Below are positions 658-20,145 of a stretch of DNA of 64,000 nt, one piece after another. The stretch covers positions 16,300 through 80,299 of the forward strand of contig JANXBX010000002.1 of NCBI GenBank assembly GCA_025060595.1, written 5' to 3'. Position 1 is the stretch's first letter; each line of letters starts with the position of its first letter. Made by a program: the position numbers and the translations under genes. The notes under the pieces were generated by a model. That model saw nothing but the letters and a program-made list of their open reading frames with translations. It made no database searches and was not told the origin of the DNA. This DNA is from Synergistota bacterium. GTDB lineage: Bacteria; Synergistota; GBS-1.

Positions 658-3600
658 CTACTTCCTCCTTAAAAGGAGAAGCGCAGGACCAATTAAAAGT
701 AGCGCTAATCCAATCGAACCAGATACCGATGCGCTACAACCGCCGCCTTCACCAACTTTGAAAACACCTTTTCCTTTAACTTTGAAGCTTTTACTCTGAT
801 TACCAGCACTTACAGTGACTGTTGCTTCATAATCTTTCCCATCGGTAGGTTCAAAGGTAATTATGACCTCTTTCTCATATATTTTATTCGCAGGAGCGGT
901 CCAGGTCGTATTAGATATAGTAAATGCGGAAGCACCAGCACCAGCGATAGCTATATTAACATTAACATCATTGTTTGTCCCATTAGAAACAATTACATTT
1001 CTTCTAAGCAACTTAGATTCGTTCACGAAAACTTCACCAAAGTTCATATCTGAAGTGTCAACTGTAAGCGTAACTTGCCCTGGAGGAGGCTGAACATAAC
1101 CCTTTCCAGATACCGCTACATAAAGGGTATAACCTCCACCAGTTATCGTTACAGTTCCAGAGTAACCTTTGTCCTGGGTTGGTGAGAACTTAACAGCAAA
1201 GGAAACGCTTCCATTAGCTGGGACAGTGGTTGCAGAAACTGCAGGAACGAAGGCATTATCACTAGAAGATATGCTCACACTTATATTAGATGAAGTGGTA
1301 TTAGTTAAGGTAAAGTTAGCACTCGCAGAGGAACCAACCAATACATTACCAAAGTCGTAACTCTTAGGTGAAACATCTAAGGTGCCCGGTGGAGAAGGAG
1401 GAGCTATATAGGGAACGCTATCTGAAACTGCAATCTTTAGAGCCTTGTTAGTAGCATCGTAGGAAAGGACGTAAAGCTTGTTTCCGTCAGTACCAATCTG
1501 TGAGTACTGACCAACATCGTAAGCGGCACTATCACAGCCATCAACCTCGTCTCGAGTATATGGGCTTCCTTCGTAAGCAACCTTCAAGCCTTTAACATCG
1601 CCTGCGGTAGCCTGGCTATATTGATAATAGCTTACAACCAAAGAGTTATTAACCACAATAGATGAAGGCCACTCGAATACTCCCTGAGAATCTACAAATT
1701 TTCTTCCTTCAAAGGTTAAAGTAGAAGATACATATCTTGCTTCCTTAAGATCTTCAAGACCAGCCCTGTAAACTATATAAGCACGGTCGCGAGCTGGGTC
1801 AACAAATATATCGGTGTGTACCGGAGAGTAAGGCACGGTAGAATACTCCACAATGGTATCCGTTCTTTGGGTATCTTGGTTGTCCATATTCTTAAGGTTG
1901 TCTCTCCAAATCCAGTGTACCTCTTGAGAATCCTTACCATAAGAAAGATAAAGATCCCCATTCACTATCTTCATGCTTATCGAGTCTATAGAGGAGCTTG
2001 CAGAGGCAAGCGGCACAGTAGGAGCGGTACTACCGCTTAATACATCTATCCAGCCTCCTGTGTTAGATTTTCTAAAGAGATAGATCTTATCTTTGTCTAT
2101 ATAGGCTATATACGGCCTATTACCATCGCTCGAATCTACCGCTATAGCAACCCCTCTTGAGCTAGTGGCTGGAGTTGAAACCTCTGCGATATCGGTAGGA
2201 CCGCTCCAGCTTTCAAAGCCTATTCTGTAAGAGTAATAAAGCTTTGATACAGAGCTGGTAGCTATATAGGCTATGTGAGGTGTTCCACCTGAAAGGGTTA
2301 TACCAAGTGCGGAAGCGGTCGCCTGAGTTACCATCTCAGCCATCCAGTAACCGTCATCACTTCTTCTCAGATACCATATCTCATAACTATTTGTTGCAAA
2401 AGCAACAGCATGAAATACTCCACCAGACATAATACCTGCGACATTCTTACCAAAGTCAACCTCCCTAATTATCGGGAAACTATCAGGCGATCGGGTAGTC
2501 CCAGAAGCTATATTAAAGGCATGCCAATAGTGCAAGTTGCTATTATCAGTCCCAAGAATATGAACCATTAAGCCATTAAGGGTAGAAGCACTTGAGTTAT
2601 GGAAGGCAAAGACCACTGCCTCAGTTGCTAACGTGCTTGGAATTAAGGTTGCTGTAGAAACGCTTGCTGCATCTGAAGGTAATGGTGGGAAATAAGAAAC
2701 AGCAACCGTAGCACCAGTAGCATAGAAGGCAAACATCCTTACAGAATTTCCCACTGTAGCGCTATATATGTCAACCCATTCCGCATCTCCAGAAGGTGCC
2801 TTCAAATTTCGAACAAACCAGGGACCTGTATTTGGAGTTGTGGAGTAAGCGACAAAGACTCCAGACTCACTTGCGAAGGCAACATGAGGATAGCCACTGG
2901 CATCAAAACCTAAGGCTATAAACTTACCAGTAGAGGGAGAAGTAGTAGCTGTAGTGGAAACCCAGCTTGGAGCACCATATGCATATTGAACTCCGTTAGA
3001 TGATATATAGGCAACCACAGGAGAACCAGCTCTTATACCTAAAGAGGGGCGAGATGAAGCAGCACTAGAGATAATGCTCGGTGTGCTCCAGCTTCCAGAG
3101 CTTTTACTAACAGAAACAAGCTTATTGCTATCATCATAATAAGCTATATAAACGGTGTTACCAGATATAGCTATAGAAGGAGTACGGTTCTTATTAAGCG
3201 TTCCTGTAGAATTTCCCACAATCTCTTTACTCCATACCCCTGAGGAGCTTCTTTTAGCATAAATTAGCTTGTAAGATGTTGTAGAAACCTGCTTATAGTA
3301 AGCTATATGAATCTCTTCTCCGCTTACAACTGCTGAAACACATCCTAGTTTATAAGAAACCTGCTCAACCACGTCTATCTCCTCAGGAGCTTTCCATTCT
3401 ACATAATACTCTGCTCCGCTTTGAACAACTCTTCCCTCTATCCCCCAGATCCTTTGGAAGGTATTAGCTCCATTGTTAAAAAATGCATCCTCATACACAA
3501 CATAAAACCTATCACCGCTTAATGGAACTAAAGCCCTGTTTGGATACCAGTTAGAAAGGTCATGATTTGAGCCACCCCAGATGAAGGCATTTTTCCAGCC

Positions 3601-3690
3601 AAGGGAAGCAAAGGCAGGAAGAACAAAGGAAAGAACACCAATCAATCCGACCACTATCAATGCTGGTGCAACCGCTCTAAAGTTTCTCAC
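658..3690 (-). CDS. Secreted beta-repeat protein with two ASH/HYDIN-like domains and Synergist-CTERM tail
   Basis: About 1010 residues. The signal peptide covers residues 1-28 and ends AFA. The body (about 30-770) repeats short strands of the type PxIAYID/YIAYYD, resembling sialidase-like beta-propeller blades. Two Ig-like choice-of-anchor (ASH/HYDIN) domains follow at about 780-875 and 885-975, each opening with a YDFGNV- or MNFGEV-type strand. The tail is GEGGGCSAS, a glycine-rich hydrophobic helix and RRK, the pattern of the Synergist-CTERM sorting signal. I chose GTG at 3690: the longer frame from 3702 starts inside the Shine-Dalgarno AAAGGAGGTG, whereas 3690 lies 11 nt past it. A surface or anchored role is inferred; the ligand is unknown. 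Its neighbour on the same strand has the same architecture with one Ig-like domain. Confidence 0.85.
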   Translation of the reverse strand: MRNFRAVAPALIVVGLIGVLSFVLPAFASLGWKNAFIWGGSNHDLSNWYPNRALVPLSGDRFYVVYEDAFFNNGANTFQRIWGIEGRVVQSGAEYYVEWKAPEEIDVVEQVSYKLGCVSAVVSGEEIHIAYYKQVSTTSYKLIYAKRSSSGVWSKEIVGNSTGTLNKNRTPSIAISGNTVYIAYYDDSNKLVSVSKSSGSWSTPSIISSAASSRPSLGIRAGSPVVAYISSNGVQYAYGAPSWVSTTATTSPSTGKFIALGFDASGYPHVAFASESGVFVAYSTTPNTGPWFVRNLKAPSGDAEWVDIYSATVGNSVRMFAFYATGATVAVSYFPPLPSDAASVSTATLIPSTLATEAVVFAFHNSSASTLNGLMVHILGTDNSNLHYWHAFNIASGTTRSPDSFPIIREVDFGKNVAGIMSGGVFHAVAFATNSYEIWYLRRSDDGYWMAEMVTQATASALGITLSGGTPHIAYIATSSVSKLYYSYRIGFESWSGPTDIAEVSTPATSSRGVAIAVDSSDGNRPYIAYIDKDKIYLFRKSNTGGWIDVLSGSTAPTVPLASASSSIDSISMKIVNGDLYLSYGKDSQEVHWIWRDNLKNMDNQDTQRTDTIVEYSTVPYSPVHTDIFVDPARDRAYIVYRAGLEDLKEARYVSSTLTFEGRKFVDSQGVFEWPSSIVVNNSLVVSYYQYSQATAGDVKGLKVAYEGSPYTRDEVDGCDSAAYDVGQYSQIGTDGNKLYVLSYDATNKALKIAVSDSVPYIAPPSPPGTLDVSPKSYDFGNVLVGSSASANFTLTNTTSSNISVSISSSDNAFVPAVSATTVPANGSVSFAVKFSPTQDKGYSGTVTITGGGYTLYVAVSGKGYVQPPPGQVTLTVDTSDMNFGEVFVNESKLLRRNVIVSNGTNNDVNVNIAIAGAGASAFTISNTTWTAPANKIYEKEVIITFEPTDGKDYEATVTVSAGNQSKSFKVKGKGVFKVGEGGGCSASVSGSIGLALLLIGPALLLLRRK

Positions 3691-3893
3691 CTTAATTTTC
3701 ACCTCCTTTAAAGGTTTCTAAAAACCCAAAACTCCTATTTGGGATTCAATCCTATACGACATCACCTCCTTACTGCGACAAAGACAAATAATCCCATTCT
3801 AATTATACTATAAAATACCAAATAAACTTTGCTTTATTTTATCACAAAGCTTCTCAACCTTGCAACTCATCCAAGAAAAAACAAAAAAGAAAA
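3691..3893 (-). promoter_or_regulatory. Leader and probable promoter of the first CTERM gene
   Basis: On the minus strand a TATAAT lies at 3802-3807, but no good -35 box sits at 17 nt, so the promoter is tentative. A perfect Shine-Dalgarno TAAGGAGGTGA at 3762-3772 lies about 72 nt upstream of the real start. The ATG directly after it is only 2 nt away and would encode 14 codons, so it is more likely an orphan ribosome-binding element than a translated leader. Confidence 0.4.
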
Positions 3894-3955: not shown

Positions 3956-6898
3956 TTACTTCTTCCTCAACGCAAGGATAGCAGGACCAATTAAGAGCAA
4001 TGCCAATCCAAGCGAGCCAACATCAGCCGCGCTACAACCTCCGCCACCAACAGCCTTACCAGTTCCACTCACAGAGACAGTCTTACTAACGGTACCGACA
4101 GTTATAGTTATGCTTCCACTATAGGATATATCATCAGTAGGAGCAAAGGTAACTTTAACGGTCTTCGAGTCACGAGCACCAGCAGCAACTTGCCATGAAG
4201 CAGGTGTTACACTAAAGCCAGTAGGTGCGCTTACACTTACATTAACAGCAGCAGCTGTCGGGTTATCAACTACAACAGTAAGAGTAAGCTCCTTAGTGTC
4301 ACCCACGTTAACCTCACCGAAGCTGAGAGAAGCAGGATTCACATCCACGGTAACCTGAGCAGGTGGAGGAACTTCGCTTACCATAGCGTTAGCCACACCA
4401 GCAGCACCCTTGTAGAAGAACAATGCCTTGCTCATCAAGGCTTCCGTACGAGATGCGTTAGCAAATACAGGTTTAGATTCCTGCTTATTCCCGCCAACCA
4501 CTACATACTCAGGCGTTCCAGCAACATCGCCAAACCTGAAGTAATACTTCGTTGCTGTTGGGTAATCAAGGTACTTGTAAAGGACATAGACTTTACCGCC
4601 CTCTGCCACAGCAAATGGATCTTTACGCTCGCAAAGCGGGCATCCGCCATCATTGATCTCCTTCCTAGTACCCTTCCATCCGTTATCTACAGAAACTTGA
4701 GCTACATCTTCCTCGTACATTAAGGAGCCTCTACCACCAGGAGAAGAGTAAACTACCGTGGCTTTGTCACTGTAAAGGGCAAGAGCAACCTCACACATCT
4801 CCTCATAGCCGCTGAAGGTCTCAACCTTGAACACATGAGAGAACGTCTGCTCGCTAGCCTCTTTCCAAGCATAGTAGACATAAGAACTAGAGGTTGTATT
4901 ATAGCCTATTGCAAGTCCCATAAGCTCATCACCATTGGAAAGGACAAGAACTTTCATATCAAGATTACCATCAGCAAGTATATTAACACTCTCTAAGCCA
5001 TCTACTGATTTGATCGTCTGCCAGGAAGCGCCTTTCTTCTGCCTGTAGAAGACACCCTTATTCACAGTTACCCATGCCACATGGATCGCATCTTTCATGT
5101 CACCAACAGAAGTAAGCTCGATATCAACATCACGAACATTGTAGTCATATGAAACAATTTCAGGCCCTGTAGTCCAACCATCGGTTATAGCAGTAACATA
5201 ACTAACTGTGGCAGGAGTAGCAGGATTTACAGCGCTATCTAAGTTACTTGCCGAGCCAGAAAGAATCGATGTAAAGACTATATGAGGAGCACCCTTAGAA
5301 TCAAGATCTATATCAGTATTCCAACCAGCATCAAGGTAATCTGGTATTTTAACCCCTAAAGCTTCACCCTTTATTTCGAACCAACCAGGCTTATTGGCAG
5401 CACCACGATTAATTAAGGTAGTAGCATCTGCAAGCACCTTATAATCGGAGCCAAATTTCACATAGTTAAGAGTCCTAAGAATCGCATCATAGAAGCTGGC
5501 ATGGTAATCACCGCTTCCAGCTACACTGTAACCCATACCAAATAGAGAGGCATTAGCAAGCGTTCTACCACTAGCAGGAGTCCAGCTTCTAAGGTTGTCA
5601 GCAGAAGCAGTTGCAAGCTTCAAGAGATCACCAGCTGTAGCCCAAGAGTAGTAGTAGTAGCCAGTATCGCTAACAAGCGTTATAGCACCATAGCCACCCT
5701 TATCAACTTGATAATATAACCAATTAATAGTACCGCCTAAAGCAGCATTAGTTGCATAAACAACACATGCTCCACCACCTAAATCCGGATCGCGAGTATC
5801 AAAGTAAGCTATAGCGACCGTCGCTTGAGAAGCAAGGCCAGTTATACCCATATCTATATTGCAAGGCCTAGCATTCTTTTGAACCACAACATTCTTCTTA
5901 AACTCACTTTGAGCCACTTGAGGAAGCTGTCCTATGATATCCCAGGTAGCCGATGTGGCAAAGGAAGTGAAAAGAATATTTCCGCCCTTCGTAACATAAG
6001 CTATACCTATTGCAGCCTCAGTAGCAGTATAACTTCCTACCCATAGCGAAGTATCCGCACCCACAGTGCAAGCATCCACAACAACGTTAGGATCAGAATC
6101 AACTAAAGCTACGCAACCTTTAGCTCCACTCCAGCTTTTACCATCCTTAGATACAGCTAAGTAAAGACCAGAACCCGATTGACCATACTTCCTAGCAATA
6201 TAGGATACAAATATCAAACCAGCCCAATTCCCAGCAAAATTCTGAGGAGTAACGAAAACATCAACACCAGTCGCCTCATAGCTAGTTATCTTACTTACTT
6301 CCCAATTAAGGTTAGCCTCAAACTCAGCCTGAGTTGCACTATCAGCAGCAACTTCAGCCATATTTAAGGTAGCAAGGTAAACACCGCTATCTCCACCAAC
6401 AGCTATAGCGGCAACGGTAGCACCGTTAGTGAAAGCGCCGGTAGCATAACCTACAGCAACGGAAGTGTACCTGGGATTTTGAAGATCAGCACAGGGGACA
6501 GTATGCACATACCAATTTGAACCATCAAACAAAGCAGCCTTAAGGGAATTACCAGAAATGTAAGATAAGATTATAAACTTCTTGTCATAATTATAAAGTG
6601 CCATAGATGGGTAAGCTCCCGCAGAGCCAGAAACCAAGTTACCATCGATTAGCCATATACCATCGATCTTTTCACTGCCAGTGGCTAAATCCCACCTATA
6701 TACTACCAATCTGCGACCATCATGAGCAGCAACATAAGCTTTATTACCATCAATGACTATTGCATTTTGAGGTATGGTCTCCTTAAAGGTGACGCTTTGG
6801 ATAGGCGTACTCTGCCATGCTGCAAAGGCAGGAAGAGCAAAAAGAAGCATGACTAATAGCGCCGTTCCCAGAACGCTTAACTTCTTAGAGAAACTCAT
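3956..6898 (-). CDS. Secreted beta-repeat protein with one ASH-like domain and Synergist-CTERM tail
   Basis: 980 residues with a signal peptide at 1-26 (ending AFA). The long central part has irregular beta-propeller-like repeats (AIAYVTKGG, VAIAYFDTRD, PHIVFTS) similar in style to the neighbouring CTERM protein. One Ig-like ASH domain lies at about 855-945 (SLSFGEVNVGDT) and the protein ends GGGGCSAADVG, a hydrophobic helix and RKK. A start at 6898 fits GGAGGTGA 8 nt upstream. The sorting tail predicts processing at the Cys/Gly site and anchoring or release at the surface. It is transcribed from a strong promoter through a 330-nt leader shared with the SLH porin at 18261-19757, and is divergent from the secretion operon. 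Substrate or function is unknown. Confidence 0.87.
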   Translation of the reverse strand: MSFSKKLSVLGTALLVMLLFALPAFAAWQSTPIQSVTFKETIPQNAIVIDGNKAYVAAHDGRRLVVYRWDLATGSEKIDGIWLIDGNLVSGSAGAYPSMALYNYDKKFIILSYISGNSLKAALFDGSNWYVHTVPCADLQNPRYTSVAVGYATGAFTNGATVAAIAVGGDSGVYLATLNMAEVAADSATQAEFEANLNWEVSKITSYEATGVDVFVTPQNFAGNWAGLIFVSYIARKYGQSGSGLYLAVSKDGKSWSGAKGCVALVDSDPNVVVDACTVGADTSLWVGSYTATEAAIGIAYVTKGGNILFTSFATSATWDIIGQLPQVAQSEFKKNVVVQKNARPCNIDMGITGLASQATVAIAYFDTRDPDLGGGACVVYATNAALGGTINWLYYQVDKGGYGAITLVSDTGYYYYSWATAGDLLKLATASADNLRSWTPASGRTLANASLFGMGYSVAGSGDYHASFYDAILRTLNYVKFGSDYKVLADATTLINRGAANKPGWFEIKGEALGVKIPDYLDAGWNTDIDLDSKGAPHIVFTSILSGSASNLDSAVNPATPATVSYVTAITDGWTTGPEIVSYDYNVRDVDIELTSVGDMKDAIHVAWVTVNKGVFYRQKKGASWQTIKSVDGLESVNILADGNLDMKVLVLSNGDELMGLAIGYNTTSSSYVYYAWKEASEQTFSHVFKVETFSGYEEMCEVALALYSDKATVVYSSPGGRGSLMYEEDVAQVSVDNGWKGTRKEINDGGCPLCERKDPFAVAEGGKVYVLYKYLDYPTATKYYFRFGDVAGTPEYVVVGGNKQESKPVFANASRTEALMSKALFFYKGAAGVANAMVSEVPPPAQVTVDVNPASLSFGEVNVGDTKELTLTVVVDNPTAAAVNVSVSAPTGFSVTPASWQVAAGARDSKTVKVTFAPTDDISYSGSITITVGTVSKTVSVSGTGKAVGGGGCSAADVGSLGLALLLIGPAILALRKK

Positions 6899-7230
6899 TC
6901 ATTTCACCTCCATTTCAGATTTTGAAGAGAAGATCGACCTCTTCCTCTTTAAAGCTTCATCCACTACTACCTCCCAGGGCACTCTTTTCCCAACAAGTAT
7001 CCTACGTTTCCTTGTCGGAAAGATCACCCTTAACGGAGGCTTAAGATAGAAGCTTAAGAGGAAGAGAAAACAAAACAATCCCCCTTAGAAGCCTTTAAGA
7101 GCGCTTCTCCCAATAAAAGATCTTCACCTCCTCCCTGGGATAGCTTAGCGCCCCTGCCTTCGTTTAAAGGCGAGGCTTCCAAAAGAGACCCCTTCCCTTA
7201 TTTCCTTTTCAAGGTCCGTTATTTAACTTC
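6899..7230 (-). promoter_or_regulatory. Long structured mRNA leader (copy A) shared with the SLH-porin leader
   Basis: About 330 nt of untranslated minus-strand RNA. It contains hairpins (for example GCCTT/AAGGC near 7156-7176 and AGAAGC/GCTTCT near 7088-7111) and a perfect Shine-Dalgarno at 7123-7135, about 230 nt before the true start, with no start codon at proper spacing. Blocks shared in the same order with the leader at 19758-20078 are: CCTTGAAA plus AAATAA near the 5' end; CGCTAAGC just before GGAGGTGAAG; a 21-mer at 6994-7014 (18 of 21 identical); and a 21-mer at about 6940-6960 (18 of 21). The genes downstream are unrelated, so the leader itself is the conserved element. It does not match a riboswitch class I know. 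Confidence 0.6.
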
Positions 7231-7236
7231 AGTATT

Positions 7237-7265
7237 ATTATAACCAAAGCAACCTTAATTGACAA
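7237..7265 (-). promoter_or_regulatory. Sigma-70-type promoter of the second CTERM gene
   Basis: On the minus strand TTGTCA (7260-7265), a 17-nt spacer and TATAAT (7237-7242) give a near-consensus housekeeping promoter, predicting a start of transcription near 7230. The same hexamers and spacing occur before the SLH-porin leader. Confidence 0.8.
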
Positions 7266-7285
7266 GGGGAAAAGCTTAAAATTTG

Positions 7286-7294
7286 TGATATAAT
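7286..7294 (+). promoter_or_regulatory. Extended -10 promoter of the secretion operon (leaderless)
   Basis: TGATATAAT at 7286-7294 is an extended -10 element. Its last base is 11 nt before the ATG at 7305, so the predicted transcript starts only about 0-4 nt before the start codon, and no Shine-Dalgarno is present. The TTGACA at 7259-7264 lies 24 nt away, too far to be its -35 box; it belongs to the divergent promoter. Confidence 0.6.
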
Positions 7295-7304
7295 CGCTTT
7301 AAAG

Positions 7305-8138
7305 ATGAGTAAGAAGGGCTCGATATTTTTAAGCGTGATTTTAGGGACAAGTATCGCCATAGCTTTAAGCATAGCGCTAAATTACTTTGCAAGAGTAGAG
7401 ATTAATAAAAGCTATAATTTCCGATATAGAAGCGAGGCTCGCATTCTTTCAAGGAGCATAATAGACGCTTTGAAAACAAACCCTATATCCATTCCACCTT
7501 ATGAGTTAAGCCCGAAAAGATGGATCAGAGTAGAATCGGAAGACTTAGAGCGTTACATAAATATAAATACCATAATTTTGCCAGATGGCAAGACCCTTGA
7601 CATAAAATGGGAAAAAATTTTTGAAAGGATCTTAAGGTTAGCCGGTGCTCCGATAGATCTGTTACCAAAGATATGTGACTTTATAGACACGGATAAAGAT
7701 GCTCGCTTAGGAGGATACGAGGGAGAGGAGAACTTAAATAGAAGGCTTTATCTCTTAGAGGAGATATTAAGGATGAGAGATTTAAATAAGGAGCTTTACG
7801 ACAAGGTCTTCTCAAAATACTTCACGGCGGTCTCCAGCGGGAGGATTAATATAAATACGGCACCAAAGGAGGTCCTCATGGCTTTATCTGAAGAGATAGA
7901 TGAAGAGGTTGCCGATGCTATAATAGAGTTTAGAAGGGGAGAGAAGATTGAGAGGGCCTCGGACTTAAAGAAGATACCTGGTTTTCCTGAGAAGATAATA
8001 CCCCAAGTGGCAGAGGTTATATGTTTCGATAGCAAGTACTATAGGTTGAAAGTTGAAGTTAAGGTTGAAGAGGCAATTTTTAAAACCGAAGTAGTGGTAA
8101 GCGATGGAAGGATAATATATGAGAGGGAGGGCTGGTGA
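7305..8138 (+). CDS. gspK: Type II secretion minor pseudopilin GspK
   Basis: 277 residues. The N-terminus (SKKG then SIFLSVILG) is a type III prepilin-like signal with a hydrophobic helix and no glutamate at position 5, as is normal for GspK, the tip pseudopilin. Helix-hairpin-helix-like segments (INTAPKEVL; KIPGFPEKI) lie at about 185-240, characteristic of the GspK periplasmic domain. GspK caps the pseudopilus in the periplasm. It is the first gene of a ten-gene operon, where canonical operons have it near the end, and probably starts a leaderless message. The partners GspI and GspJ with which it forms the tip complex are not in this operon. Confidence 0.82.
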   Translation: MSKKGSIFLSVILGTSIAIALSIALNYFARVEINKSYNFRYRSEARILSRSIIDALKTNPISIPPYELSPKRWIRVESEDLERYININTIILPDGKTLDIKWEKIFERILRLAGAPIDLLPKICDFIDTDKDARLGGYEGEENLNRRLYLLEEILRMRDLNKELYDKVFSKYFTAVSSGRININTAPKEVLMALSEEIDEEVADAIIEFRRGEKIERASDLKKIPGFPEKIIPQVAEVICFDSKYYRLKVEVKVEEAIFKTEVVVSDGRIIYEREGW

Positions 8139-16734: not shown

Positions 16735-18180
16735 TTAGAAGGTTATGTATGTGGTGAAGCTGAAGCGAGATTCATTCTGACGAATATCAAATCCGCTTGT
16801 CCAATTAACCCTTTGGAAACCAAACTCAAAGCTCAAAGAAGGAGTATATTGATAGAGGAAGGATAAGGAAAAGGAAGTAGCATCGGGAAGGTTTTCGCCC
16901 TTATAGTTAACGTTATAATATCTCTGCGTAGTTGATACCTTATCGCTCCATTGCTGGGTTAACTTGAGGAAGAATACATTTACATCATCAGCCACATATC
17001 CGCTTAAAACGGGAGAGCTAACCCCATTGATTTCACTCGTATCAATTAAGAACCCCTGAGCCTCTAAGTAGCTGTAAGGTTGGCTTGTCCTGTCAGTATA
17101 GAAGGCTCCCCTATCCATATGCATATATTCAGCAGTTAAAGATGTGAACTTAAGAAGGCTCTGATCTAGCGAAAGACCAAGCTTGTATATAATCGGCTTA
17201 TCAACATACACTCCAGCGACATCAACCCTTCCGCCGAGGTCCTCGGAGATATACTGCCCGTAAAGCTTAAAGCCTTCAGTAAGATTGAAGGTGAAATCAA
17301 CTCCATAAGCATAGGGATCAAGAGTTATACCAGGAGCAGTCTTCCAGCCCATATAGAACAAGCCAAGCCTAAATTTTTCGCCCATGAAGAAGTCTAAGCG
17401 ACCACCATACTCAGCAACCTCATCACCATCGGAGTAAGCGTAGTATAAAGCGATGTCAACGGAACCGCTCTTCTTATTGAAGTATATTATAGGAGCATAA
17501 ACCCTGTCGGTTAAAATAGCATCGTTATCAGAGTAAAGTCCTCTCTCCCCTTCCCAGTCCAAGACCCACTTACCTATGGTCATGTTAATATTCCACGGAA
17601 GAGCTATATCTGCATAGGCTCTTCCCACAACGACCCTACCTGTTTCGCCCTCAAAACGGAAGGTTACGGAGACTTTGTCATCGACCTGTTTGCTAGCATA
17701 AAGGTAAATTTCATCAAACTGGGCCGTCTGATAGTCTTTTGTTAAATTAAAGTAGTCTCCGCTATTCCAGTAGAAATATAGCTCCAGAGAACCGCTAAAG
17801 GCAAAGTTATTCAAGTTCTTCTCAACGGTAGCCAATCTCTTGTCGATCTTGTCAAGCTTAACGCCAAGGGCATTAAGCTCATCCTTAAACTCAACGATAA
17901 GCTTCTTCAATAGAGCAAGATCCTCCTTAGAGGCTTTCGTCTCATCAACCTTCGCCAAAGCTCTCGCTATGACCATCGCTATCTCGTAACGGGTAATGGG
18001 CTTCGTTCCCTGGAAGGTCCCATCGGGATAACCAACGACTATTCCGGCAGCGGAAAGCTTCTTTAAAGCATCATATGCCCAGTGATTCAAGGGAACATCA
18101 ACAAAGGGGTTAGAAGCGTAAAGAGGGGTTACTATTAAAAACAGTGACAGAATCAGCATAATAGGTATTAAACGCCTCAT
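16735..18180 (-). CDS. SLH-domain outer-membrane porin (paralogue 1)
   Basis: 481 residues. Signal peptide about 1-22 (ends YAS), one SLH domain (about 24-82; FVDVPLNHWAYDAL, GTFQGTKPITRYEIAMVI), a coiled-coil spacer (about 85-122) and a C-terminal beta-barrel ending in an aromatic strand (FTTYITF). This is the OmpM-like design in which the SLH domain ties an outer-membrane porin to cell-wall polymer. The ATG at 18180 is chosen over TTG 18195 because GGAGGGA sits 8 nt before it and the signal peptide then starts properly. The first 307 coding bases after the signal peptide are 95% identical to paralogue 2. It lies directly behind a terminator without room for a promoter. Confidence 0.9.
   Translation of the reverse strand: MRRLIPIMLILSLFLIVTPLYASNPFVDVPLNHWAYDALKKLSAAGIVVGYPDGTFQGTKPITRYEIAMVIARALAKVDETKASKEDLALLKKLIVEFKDELNALGVKLDKIDKRLATVEKNLNNFAFSGSLELYFYWNSGDYFNLTKDYQTAQFDEIYLYASKQVDDKVSVTFRFEGETGRVVVGRAYADIALPWNINMTIGKWVLDWEGERGLYSDNDAILTDRVYAPIIYFNKKSGSVDIALYYAYSDGDEVAEYGGRLDFFMGEKFRLGLFYMGWKTAPGITLDPYAYGVDFTFNLTEGFKLYGQYISEDLGGRVDVAGVYVDKPIIYKLGLSLDQSLLKFTSLTAEYMHMDRGAFYTDRTSQPYSYLEAQGFLIDTSEINGVSSPVLSGYVADDVNVFFLKLTQQWSDKVSTTQRYYNVNYKGENLPDATSFSLSFLYQYTPSLSFEFGFQRVNWTSGFDIRQNESRFSFTTYITF
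17811..18117 (-). repeat. SLH-coding direct repeat, copy 1
   Basis: 307 bases match 19388-19694 without gaps and with 15 mismatches by my count (about 95%), mostly at third positions. It covers the SLH domain and coiled coil; the barrel-coding parts on either gene are clearly more diverged. Confidence 0.9.
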
Positions 18181-18206
18181 CCCACATCCCTCCAAACACT
18201 CAAAAA

Positions 18207-18260: not shown

Positions 18261-19757
18261 TTAGAATGTGATATAGGTCCTGAAGCGGAAGTGAGATTCA
18301 TCTAAGAGGCCAGCTTTATTCTCGCTCCAGTCAGCAGAAGAGTAGATAAATTCAAAGGCAGTAGAAGGAGTATACTGGTACCTTAAAGCAACGGAGAAAG
18401 CAGTAACATCTGGAAGAGTATCATAGTCAACGGCATAATAGCGCTCGATCGTCGTTACCTTGTCGCTCCACTTCTGCATAAGCCTGAGGAAGAGAATATC
18501 CACATCGTCCTTCAACGCCCTATTCCATATAACATCAGTAGTTCCCTGCTTATAGCCATATTGCAAGAAGTCCTGCCTGAACACGCCAACGCCGTTCCAG
18601 TCATTCCCAGCACCAGGAGCTCCACCATATATACGAGTATTGGCAAATGCACCCTTATCAGCATGGAAGTACTCAGCAACCAAGGATGTGAATCCTATGA
18701 CGCTCTGATCTATACTAACGCCTACCTTGTAAATGGTAGCATTGTCAACGCTCTCTCCTCCTATAACAAATGCGCCACCTAAGTCCTCATTGAAGTATTG
18801 ACCATAAACCCTAAAGCCTTTCATGAAGTTAACGGTGAAATCTATACCGTAAAGATAAGGATTATCAACCAATGGGAATCTATCGGCATCCGTTATCCAA
18901 CCCAAGTAAAGAAGACCCACTCTTATCTTATCATTAAAGTAGAGATCCAGACGTCCGGCATATTCAGCAGTCTCATTACCATCATCATAAGCATAGTAAA
19001 CCATTCCCTTAGCTATACCAAAGTCCTTCTTTAACATGATAACTGGGTTCCAAAGGCGATCGCTTACCACAGCATCGTTATCAAAGTATAAACCAAGGGC
19101 TCCCTCCCAGTCATCCAGGTACTTACCTAAGGTCATCATAACATCCCATGGAAGCTTAATATCAGCCCAAGCTCTGTCTGCAGCTACAACGTTAGCCGTT
19201 CCTCCAACGGTCCTATGAGCATCAAAACGGAAAGCTATACCCACATTATCATCTACCTGCTTTCTAACCCAAAGACGCGCCCTGTGAACAAAAGCATCTT
19301 GATAGTTATTTTGCTGCAGAGCATCATACCAATCTCCACTATTCCATACAAAATCAACCCTCAACTCTCCACTAAATCTGAAATTGCTCAAGTTCTTCTC
19401 AACGGTAGCTAATCTCTTGTCGATCTTGTCAACCTTAACGTTAAGGGCATTGAGCTCATCCTTAAACTCAACGACAAGCTTCTTCAATAGAGCAAGATCC
19501 TCCTTAGAGGCCTTCGTCTCATCAACCTTCGCCAAAGCTCTCGCTATGACCATTGCCATCTCGTAACGGGTAATGGGCTTCGTTCCCTGGAAGGTCCCAT
19601 CGGGATAACCAACGACTATTCCAGCAGCAGAAAGCTTCTTCACAGCATCATATGCCCAGTGATTCAAAGGAACATCGACAAAGGGGTTAGAAGCTAGTGC
19701 CGGAACTGCCAACGCTAAGACAGCCACCAAAACGGCTACAACAGTATACTTTTTCAT
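18261..19757 (-). CDS. SLH-domain outer-membrane porin (paralogue 2)
   Basis: 498 residues. Signal peptide about 1-22 (ends ALA), SLH domain (about 24-80), coiled coil (85-120) and a beta-barrel (about 125-498) with amphipathic strands such as FRVYGQYFNEDLGG and the terminal FRFRTYITF. Predicted abundant outer-membrane porin and wall tether. ATG at 19757 follows GGAGGG at 8-9 nt. It is the promoter-proximal gene of the pair, with a near-consensus promoter and a 320-nt leader homologous to that of the CTERM gene at 3956-6898, which suggests strong expression and shared control. Confidence 0.92.
   Translation of the reverse strand: MKKYTVVAVLVAVLALAVPALASNPFVDVPLNHWAYDAVKKLSAAGIVVGYPDGTFQGTKPITRYEMAMVIARALAKVDETKASKEDLALLKKLVVEFKDELNALNVKVDKIDKRLATVEKNLSNFRFSGELRVDFVWNSGDWYDALQQNNYQDAFVHRARLWVRKQVDDNVGIAFRFDAHRTVGGTANVVAADRAWADIKLPWDVMMTLGKYLDDWEGALGLYFDNDAVVSDRLWNPVIMLKKDFGIAKGMVYYAYDDGNETAEYAGRLDLYFNDKIRVGLLYLGWITDADRFPLVDNPYLYGIDFTVNFMKGFRVYGQYFNEDLGGAFVIGGESVDNATIYKVGVSIDQSVIGFTSLVAEYFHADKGAFANTRIYGGAPGAGNDWNGVGVFRQDFLQYGYKQGTTDVIWNRALKDDVDILFLRLMQKWSDKVTTIERYYAVDYDTLPDVTAFSVALRYQYTPSTAFEFIYSSADWSENKAGLLDESHFRFRTYITF
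19388..19694 (-). repeat. SLH-coding direct repeat, copy 2
   Basis: Second copy of the 307-bp SLH/coiled-coil segment found at 17811-18117 (15 mismatches, no gaps), same orientation, 1.27 kb apart. Confidence 0.9.
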
Positions 19758-20078
19758 CCACGCACCCTCCTTTTTCTCGATTTTTGCTTCTCCCTCTTTA
19801 GAGCTTCCTCTAAGGAGCAGTTCCGGGAGGAAAAGAAAGCAAGTATCCCCTGTTTCCTTGCTTCCTCCTCTTTTAAATCCACCCTCTCTGCTTCCTTTAA
19901 AGAAGCCCTCTAAAGAGGGACAGCTTAAAAGCCTTAAATCTCCTTTCCCTTTCCCCTCCTGTAAAGCTTTGAAAGAAGCTTCACCTCCTTTCCGCTTAGC
20001 GGAAGGAAAAGCAAGGAGATAGGCCTTTCTCCTTTATTTGAGCTTTCAAGGTGCATACTTTAAGTATAGCTTTTAACC
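19758..20078 (-). promoter_or_regulatory. Long structured mRNA leader (copy B) of SLH porin
   Basis: About 320 nt of untranslated RNA without a gene. Short hairpins are frequent: gcatactt/gtatagc at 20053-20070, GGAGA/TCTCC near 20010-20030, CCGC-TAA-GCGG at 19992-20002 and CCCTCT/AGAGGG at 19906-19919. A perfect Shine-Dalgarno AAAGGAGGTGAAG at 19979-19991 lies about 225 nt before the porin start with no start codon at normal spacing. Sequence blocks are shared in order with leader A (6899-7230), including the 21-mer at 19840-19860. No known riboswitch recognised. Confidence 0.6.
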
Positions 20079-20084
20079 ATCTCT

Positions 20085-20113
20085 ATTATAATTAAAGATT
20101 TCCAAATTGACAA
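20085..20113 (-). promoter_or_regulatory. Sigma-70-type promoter of SLH porins
   Basis: Minus-strand TTGTCA (20108-20113), 17-nt spacer, TATAAT (20085-20090); transcription predicted to start near 20078. It is the same promoter form as at 7237-7265. Confidence 0.8.
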
Positions 20114-20136
20114 GGGGCATCGCTTAAAAAGTTTTT

Positions 20137-20145
20137 TGATATAAT
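20137..20145 (+). promoter_or_regulatory. Extended -10 promoter of the glycolipid operon (leaderless)
   Basis: TGATATAAT ends 7 nt before the ATG at 20153, so the predicted transcription start is at or next to the start codon. No Shine-Dalgarno precedes the gene. This is the same arrangement as at 7286-7305. Confidence 0.6.

Follow-up and report, generated by a model that had tools for sequence, protein, structure and literature searches.

Leaders before two unrelated surface-protein genes as probable divergent copies of a cis-acting RNA found across the Synergistota

Why should two genes with unrelated protein products be preceded by long leaders that resemble each other? The question arises in the 64,000-nucleotide stretch of a Synergistota bacterium contig analysed here (the window), where a gene for a 980-aa secreted protein (the CTERM gene, 3956–6898, minus strand; choice-of-anchor D/ASH domain and a C-terminal sorting-like tail) and a gene for an SLH porin (18261–19757, minus strand; SLH domain and outer-membrane barrel) are preceded by leader RNAs at 6899–7230 (minus strand, predicted transcript start to start codon) and 19758–20078 (minus strand), respectively. 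A sequence-only reading had proposed that these ~330-nt leaders are homologous and share a promoter while their coding sequences are unrelated. The domain contents of the two proteins bear out the last point, and the promoter is indeed the same, TTGTCA-17-TATAAT on the minus strand, at 7237–7265 for the CTERM leader (TTGTCA 7265–7260, TATAAT 7242–7237) and at 20085–20113 for the porin leader (TTGTCA 20113–20108, TATAAT 20090–20085); the four genomes of the family (the window genome plus G001, G002 and G003) all have this arrangement at their SLH-porin leaders. Opposite both leaders, the divergent genes for T2SSK and a PAP2 phosphatase have a common TTGACAAGGGG...TATAATC region on the plus strand (7259–7295 and 20107–20145), so the similarity extends past the leader promoter. 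The CTERM protein and the product of 658–3702 (minus strand) are two large secreted choice-of-anchor D/ASH proteins with a common tail, GGG.CS...GS.GLALLL.GP..L.R.K, and their genes adjoin the type II secretion gene T2SSK at 7305; a sorting or secretion pairing of both tailed proteins with T2SSK is plausible.

A profile HMM of the four family SLH-porin leaders gives a colinear match over most of the CTERM leader (E = 3.4e-8, score 27.8; the top score was 13.2 among the 267 of 1000 dinucleotide shuffles that scored at all), and with the promoter removed the match still has E = 1.2e-5; the relation extends further than had first been seen. The 21-mer that matches at 18 of 21 positions (7014–6994 against 19860–19840) and a second 18 of 21 block (near 6940–6960 against 19790–19810) lie where they were originally placed, and so do the blocks said to occur in the same order in both leaders, except that the CGCTAAGC block is equivalent only in part: in the SLH leaders it reads CCGC-U-AAGC and belongs to helices P2/P3, its AAGC pairing with a downstream GCUU, and this arrangement is not clearly seen in the CTERM leader. 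A search of the 1.86-Mb genome for the hairpin pattern AAGGAAACNNNGGATACTT, with no mismatches allowed, gives two matches, one in the CTERM leader and one in the SLH leader; the other three genomes of the family have a single match each, always in the SLH-porin leader. Pairwise similarity between the two leaders falls under blastn detection (the CTERM leader did not find the SLH leader when searched against its own genome), as might be expected of chance similarity or of a mobile DNA repeat without RNA function; chance is ruled out by the profile E-values together with the phylum-wide covariation described below, and the copies are not scattered the way a repeat would be, so we give this explanation negligible weight. 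At the level of sequence comparison, then, the two leaders are homologous.

Both leaders are also predicted to fold stably (CTERM leader −131.3 kcal/mol, z = −6.9; SLH porin leader z = −7.0). In the SLH leader, arm 1 (19949–20011, minus strand) is built on the helix CUUUUCCUUCC/GGAGGGGAAAG (20011–20001 with 19959–19949), which relatives retain with altered pairs, and contains a P3 helix AAGC/GCUU (19997–19994 with 19967–19964) that closes the loop GGAAAGGAGGUG (19993–19982); its P5 hairpin (19833–19867, minus strand, identified by pattern match and stem-loop comparison) has the loop GAAACAGGGGATA at 19856–19844. The CTERM leader (features likewise on the minus strand) has the 5′ conserved block CCTTGAAA at 7207–7214 (CTTTGACAA in other families), an arm-2 base in which CUCUUCCUCUU (7056–7066) pairs with AAGAGGAAGAG (6939–6949) as a perfect 11-bp inverted repeat, and a P5 hairpin (6990–7018, an exact pattern match) with the loop GAAACGTAGGATA at 7010–6998. 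Its arm-1 loop block GGAGGTGAAG (7122–7131, no start codon at Shine-Dalgarno spacing) recurs in the SLH leader at 19988–19979 and is the counterpart of the GAAAGGAGGUG loop of the wider family. The CTERM leader thus retains the promoter, CCTTGAAA, the GGAGGUGAAG block, P5 and the two-arm fold, and its arm 1 has diverged further.

What is the wider family to which these leaders are compared? In most Synergistota families the regions upstream of SLH porins show the same blocks in the same order: CTTTGACAA, then arm 1 (helices P1, P2 and P3, with the loop GAAAGGAGGUGC...CCCCC, which displays GAAAGGAGGUG beside a C-tract), then a AAGGCGGA segment that pairs just before the ribosome binding site (RBS) as helix P4, then the P5 hairpin AAG[G.AAC NN(N) GG..A]CUU that caps arm 2, then a second C-tract and finally the RBS, AAGGGGGU. 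Covarying stems were sought and found in arm 1, where 92.3% of cells are paired in 20 sequences against ≤46% with slid partners, the covariation score in these 20 is 0.483 against 0.240 for shuffles and ≤0.155 for slid partners, 63 distinct sequences give 149 double-change cells against 46.7 ± 5.2, and 40 sequences that include other phyla give a covariation of 0.627 against 0.190; among these counts, those on alignments A4 and A6 lean to the model used for aligning, and that on A2 comes from a MAFFT alignment whose arms we had trimmed at P1 beforehand. The P5 stem-loop is present in 61 of the 62 leaders examined, and a swap test supports P4 as a closing helix. These data establish the arm-1 structure, the P5 hairpin and the association with SLH porins. 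Three other candidate features were rejected: a CsrA-type site built on GGA motifs (the second GGA is not kept, being GGU, GGC or GGG in P5, and the first varies too), a leader peptide beginning after GGAGGUG (where no start codon is conserved at the Shine-Dalgarno distance) and an RBS mini-hairpin AACC:GGUU (retained only in part).

The sequence-only reading had suggested a search of related genomes, and the 71-nt arm-1 covariance model (R1) matches 125 of 188 Synergistota genomes, representing 49 of 63 genera, with E-values down to 1e-24, usually once per genome and upstream of SLH porins; SLH-porin orthologs were found in 55 of 61 Synergistota genomes. R1 by itself does not significantly recognise either window copy; on the four SLH leaders of the window family it scores 8.6–12.6 bits in the right place (E = 0.05–1.1, none significant), so that position, loops, P5 and HMMs are what place them in the family. 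The SLH copy has the P5 hairpin with its G.AAC..GG..A loop, the GAAAGGAGGUG loop and the position before the orthologous porin; its P3 is changed, AAGC:GCUU closing the GGAAAGGAGGUG loop, and its P5 loop fits a pattern also present in G009 (L057). The best match in the window to an HMM made without the window family is the SLH leader (E = 9e-4, plus a second colinear piece). The CTERM copy has P5, GGGAGGAGGUG in place of GAAAGGAGGUG, and a downstream gene that is not an SLH porin. A second SLH porin (16735–18195, minus strand; identical tandem in G001) lies just 65 nt downstream of the first and so is without a leader of its own. Just upstream of and outside the window (G000:C2:15380–15691) is a further gene, with two SLH repeats in a 708-residue open frame, where no exact match to the hairpin pattern was found.

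Outside the Synergistota we searched two samples of about 200 genomes each. One genome, G403, has an R1 match at 3.1e-6 on a contig that is native, as its neighbouring YqgF is 83% identical to that of a congener, and the same RNA lies beside yqgF and before SLH genes in G512, G263 and G517 (the copies in G403 and G512 were detected by the model, those in G263 and G517 by yqgF synteny); the association of the RNA with SLH genes thus holds in at least one phylum besides the Synergistota. With broader models, another three intergenic copies turned up in G265, G311 and G446, each ahead of a gene for an outer-membrane barrel or porin that has no SLH domain. Five other weak matches (L179, L182, L186, L187 and L188) were discarded because they fall within coding sequence or open frames. 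Since such false positives reach similar E-values, model E-values near 1e-4 are optimistic, L180, L181 and L183 are probable only, and the support for the three barrel copies comes from their gene context and from loop:RBS complementarity (seen in two of them, G265 and G446). We consider these three barrel copies in other phyla probable.

How might such a leader act? Two C-tracts, one in arm 1 and one following P5, are complementary to the RBS, and each leader's own tracts bind its own RBS better than swapped ones do, for both tracts (0 of 5000 permutations, sequence relatedness being ignored). Natural double changes preserve the complementarity, as in CUCCC:GGGAG (L086), CUCUCCU:AGGAGAG (L070), GAUCCCCC:GGGGGAUC (G263) and AUCCCCC:GGGGGAU (G446). 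Sequence comparison thus supports RBS/C-tract complementarity with compensating changes, part of which could come from the general G-richness of an RBS. In the window family the C-tracts are not clear, the RBS being GGAGGGU or GGAGGUG without a matching CCCUCC, so the pairing mechanism is extrapolated there; an alternative closing helix in this family, between a 5′ ACCUUG and the RBS, was rejected since covariation gives it no support (p = 0.098).

We consider it probable that both window leaders are divergent copies of a Synergistota-wide cis-acting 5′-leader RNA that most likely controls translation initiation. In arm 1 a loop would expose GAAAGGAGGUG together with a C-rich tract acting as anti-RBS, and arm 2, capped by the conserved P5 loop, would be followed by the second tract; pairing of the gene's own G-rich RBS with either tract would occlude it over a long range and turn translation off, and a free RBS would leave it on. 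Some signal (a ligand, a protein, ribosome occupancy or a small RNA) would act on both conserved loops, and GAAAGGAGGUG, lying next to the C-tract, may compete for it or dock ribosomes. By such means the leader probably sets the amount of the main outer-membrane protein made, and the CTERM gene may have gained its copy by duplication, for porin-like expression.

The same folds could instead be a constitutive element, compact enough to shield the message from 5′ decay and so raise expression of an abundant envelope protein, with no switching. Very stable folding (z about −7), the place of such SLH porins among the most abundant proteins (PMC9388160) and the recruitment of the leader by other secreted proteins all agree with this, but it leaves the conserved loop sequences and the compensatory C-tract/RBS changes unexplained; because the RBS pairs with conserved C-tracts and does so with compensatory changes, regulation is favoured over pure stabilisation, which we rate as a minority possibility. 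Ribosome docking, in which the GAAAGGAGGUG loop pairs with the 3′ end of 16S rRNA, forming a standby site ~200 nt upstream from which the 30S subunit is passed to a weaker, occluded RBS, draws on the loop's complementarity over 11 nt to CACCUCCUUUC in several phyla and on its having no start codon. Several lineages, however, have GGUGGUG, GGAGAUG, GGAGGCG or inserted middle bases, so perfect anti-SD complementarity is not kept, and we think docking unlikely.

Two further alternatives depend on which genes carry the leader. A riboswitch that senses a metabolite or ion (for example a c-di-GMP envelope signal), with arm 1 and P5 as its aptamer, would account for the long, highly conserved unpaired loops and an RBS open to sequestration, and it is the reading proposed by Stav et al. 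(PMC6429828); but the leader nearly always accompanies a single gene family and genomes have about one copy each, a pattern closer to that of a gene-specific leader than to that of a metabolite riboswitch with several pathway genes under it, and no Rfam riboswitch resembles it, which leaves this reading improbable to about the same degree as docking. Autogenous feedback, with translation repressed through binding of the porin, or of an envelope-stress protein, to the leader once export reaches saturation, fits the restriction to one gene family and the way in which copies accompany porin paralogs: all ten leader copies in G063 precede SLH porins, and this genome (L124–L132) has about ten SLH-porin paralogs, each with its own nearly identical leader. 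Against it, the CTERM gene, secreted proteins in G004 and the probable non-SLH barrels also carry the leader, and no RNA-binding domain was found in the porin; we regard it as quite unlikely. In G004 two identical copies (L189 and L190) stand before two unrelated secreted proteins, so that unrelated secreted proteins have recruited the leader at least twice, counting the CTERM gene of the window. The two G004 proteins have the same N-terminus and may belong to a family of variable surface proteins.

In these deep-branching diderms the main outer-membrane protein, which links membrane and wall, is produced in very large amounts, and a leader conserved phylum-wide, present beyond the phylum and reused by unrelated surface proteins suggests one common control. 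A broader proposal, that leaders of this kind form a translational-control family spanning several phyla and serving abundant outer-membrane and surface proteins, with or without SLH domains, one loop combining a 16S docking sequence with an anti-RBS tract for the distant start site in a switch passed between unrelated secreted-protein genes, we advance only tentatively, as more doubtful than not.

Is the RNA new? Rfam 15 gave no match in the window at the gathering score, and in 15 related loci only scattered chance matches at E ≤ 5, none in leaders, so no Rfam 15 family explains it as a known class. Stav et al. (2019, BMC Microbiol 19:66, PMC6429828) did, however, report from Thermovirga lienii (Synergistetes) a riboswitch candidate, the "SLH motif", with 80 examples in Synergistaceae, Clostridia and Negativicutes, about 60% of them upstream of SLH-domain genes. 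The present leader is very probably this motif, an identification drawn from the agreement of phylum, gene and context and not from the published consensus: like the motif as described there, it lies directly upstream of SLH-domain genes in Synergistota, and some copies precede non-SLH genes (CTERM, G004 and the probable barrels). Of the initial description as a new structured regulatory RNA, the structured, conserved leader therefore holds, through covariation, phylum-wide recurrence and recruitment, and the word "new" does not. Relative to that account of the motif, the additions are the spread over 49 of 63 genera, the window's divergent family, the non-SLH secreted proteins, the second arm and the RBS pairing. 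What we take to be new is the divergent form, the non-SLH recruitment, the model with two arms and RBS pairing, and a broader range that includes probable barrel copies; the covariation model with its C-tract:RBS prediction renders the 2019 orphan candidate directly testable. Autogenous ribosomal-protein leaders are gene-specific, structured, occlude the RBS and occur about once per genome; the leader described here is like them in its gene-specific structure, its proposed RBS occlusion and its copy number, and differs in that its target is an outer-membrane protein and that no Rfam leader matches it. Long structured 5′ UTRs are also found on the abundant envelope-protein mRNAs of Thermus slpA and E. 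coli ompA, to which the present leader is alike, by description alone, as a long structured leader on an abundant envelope-protein message.
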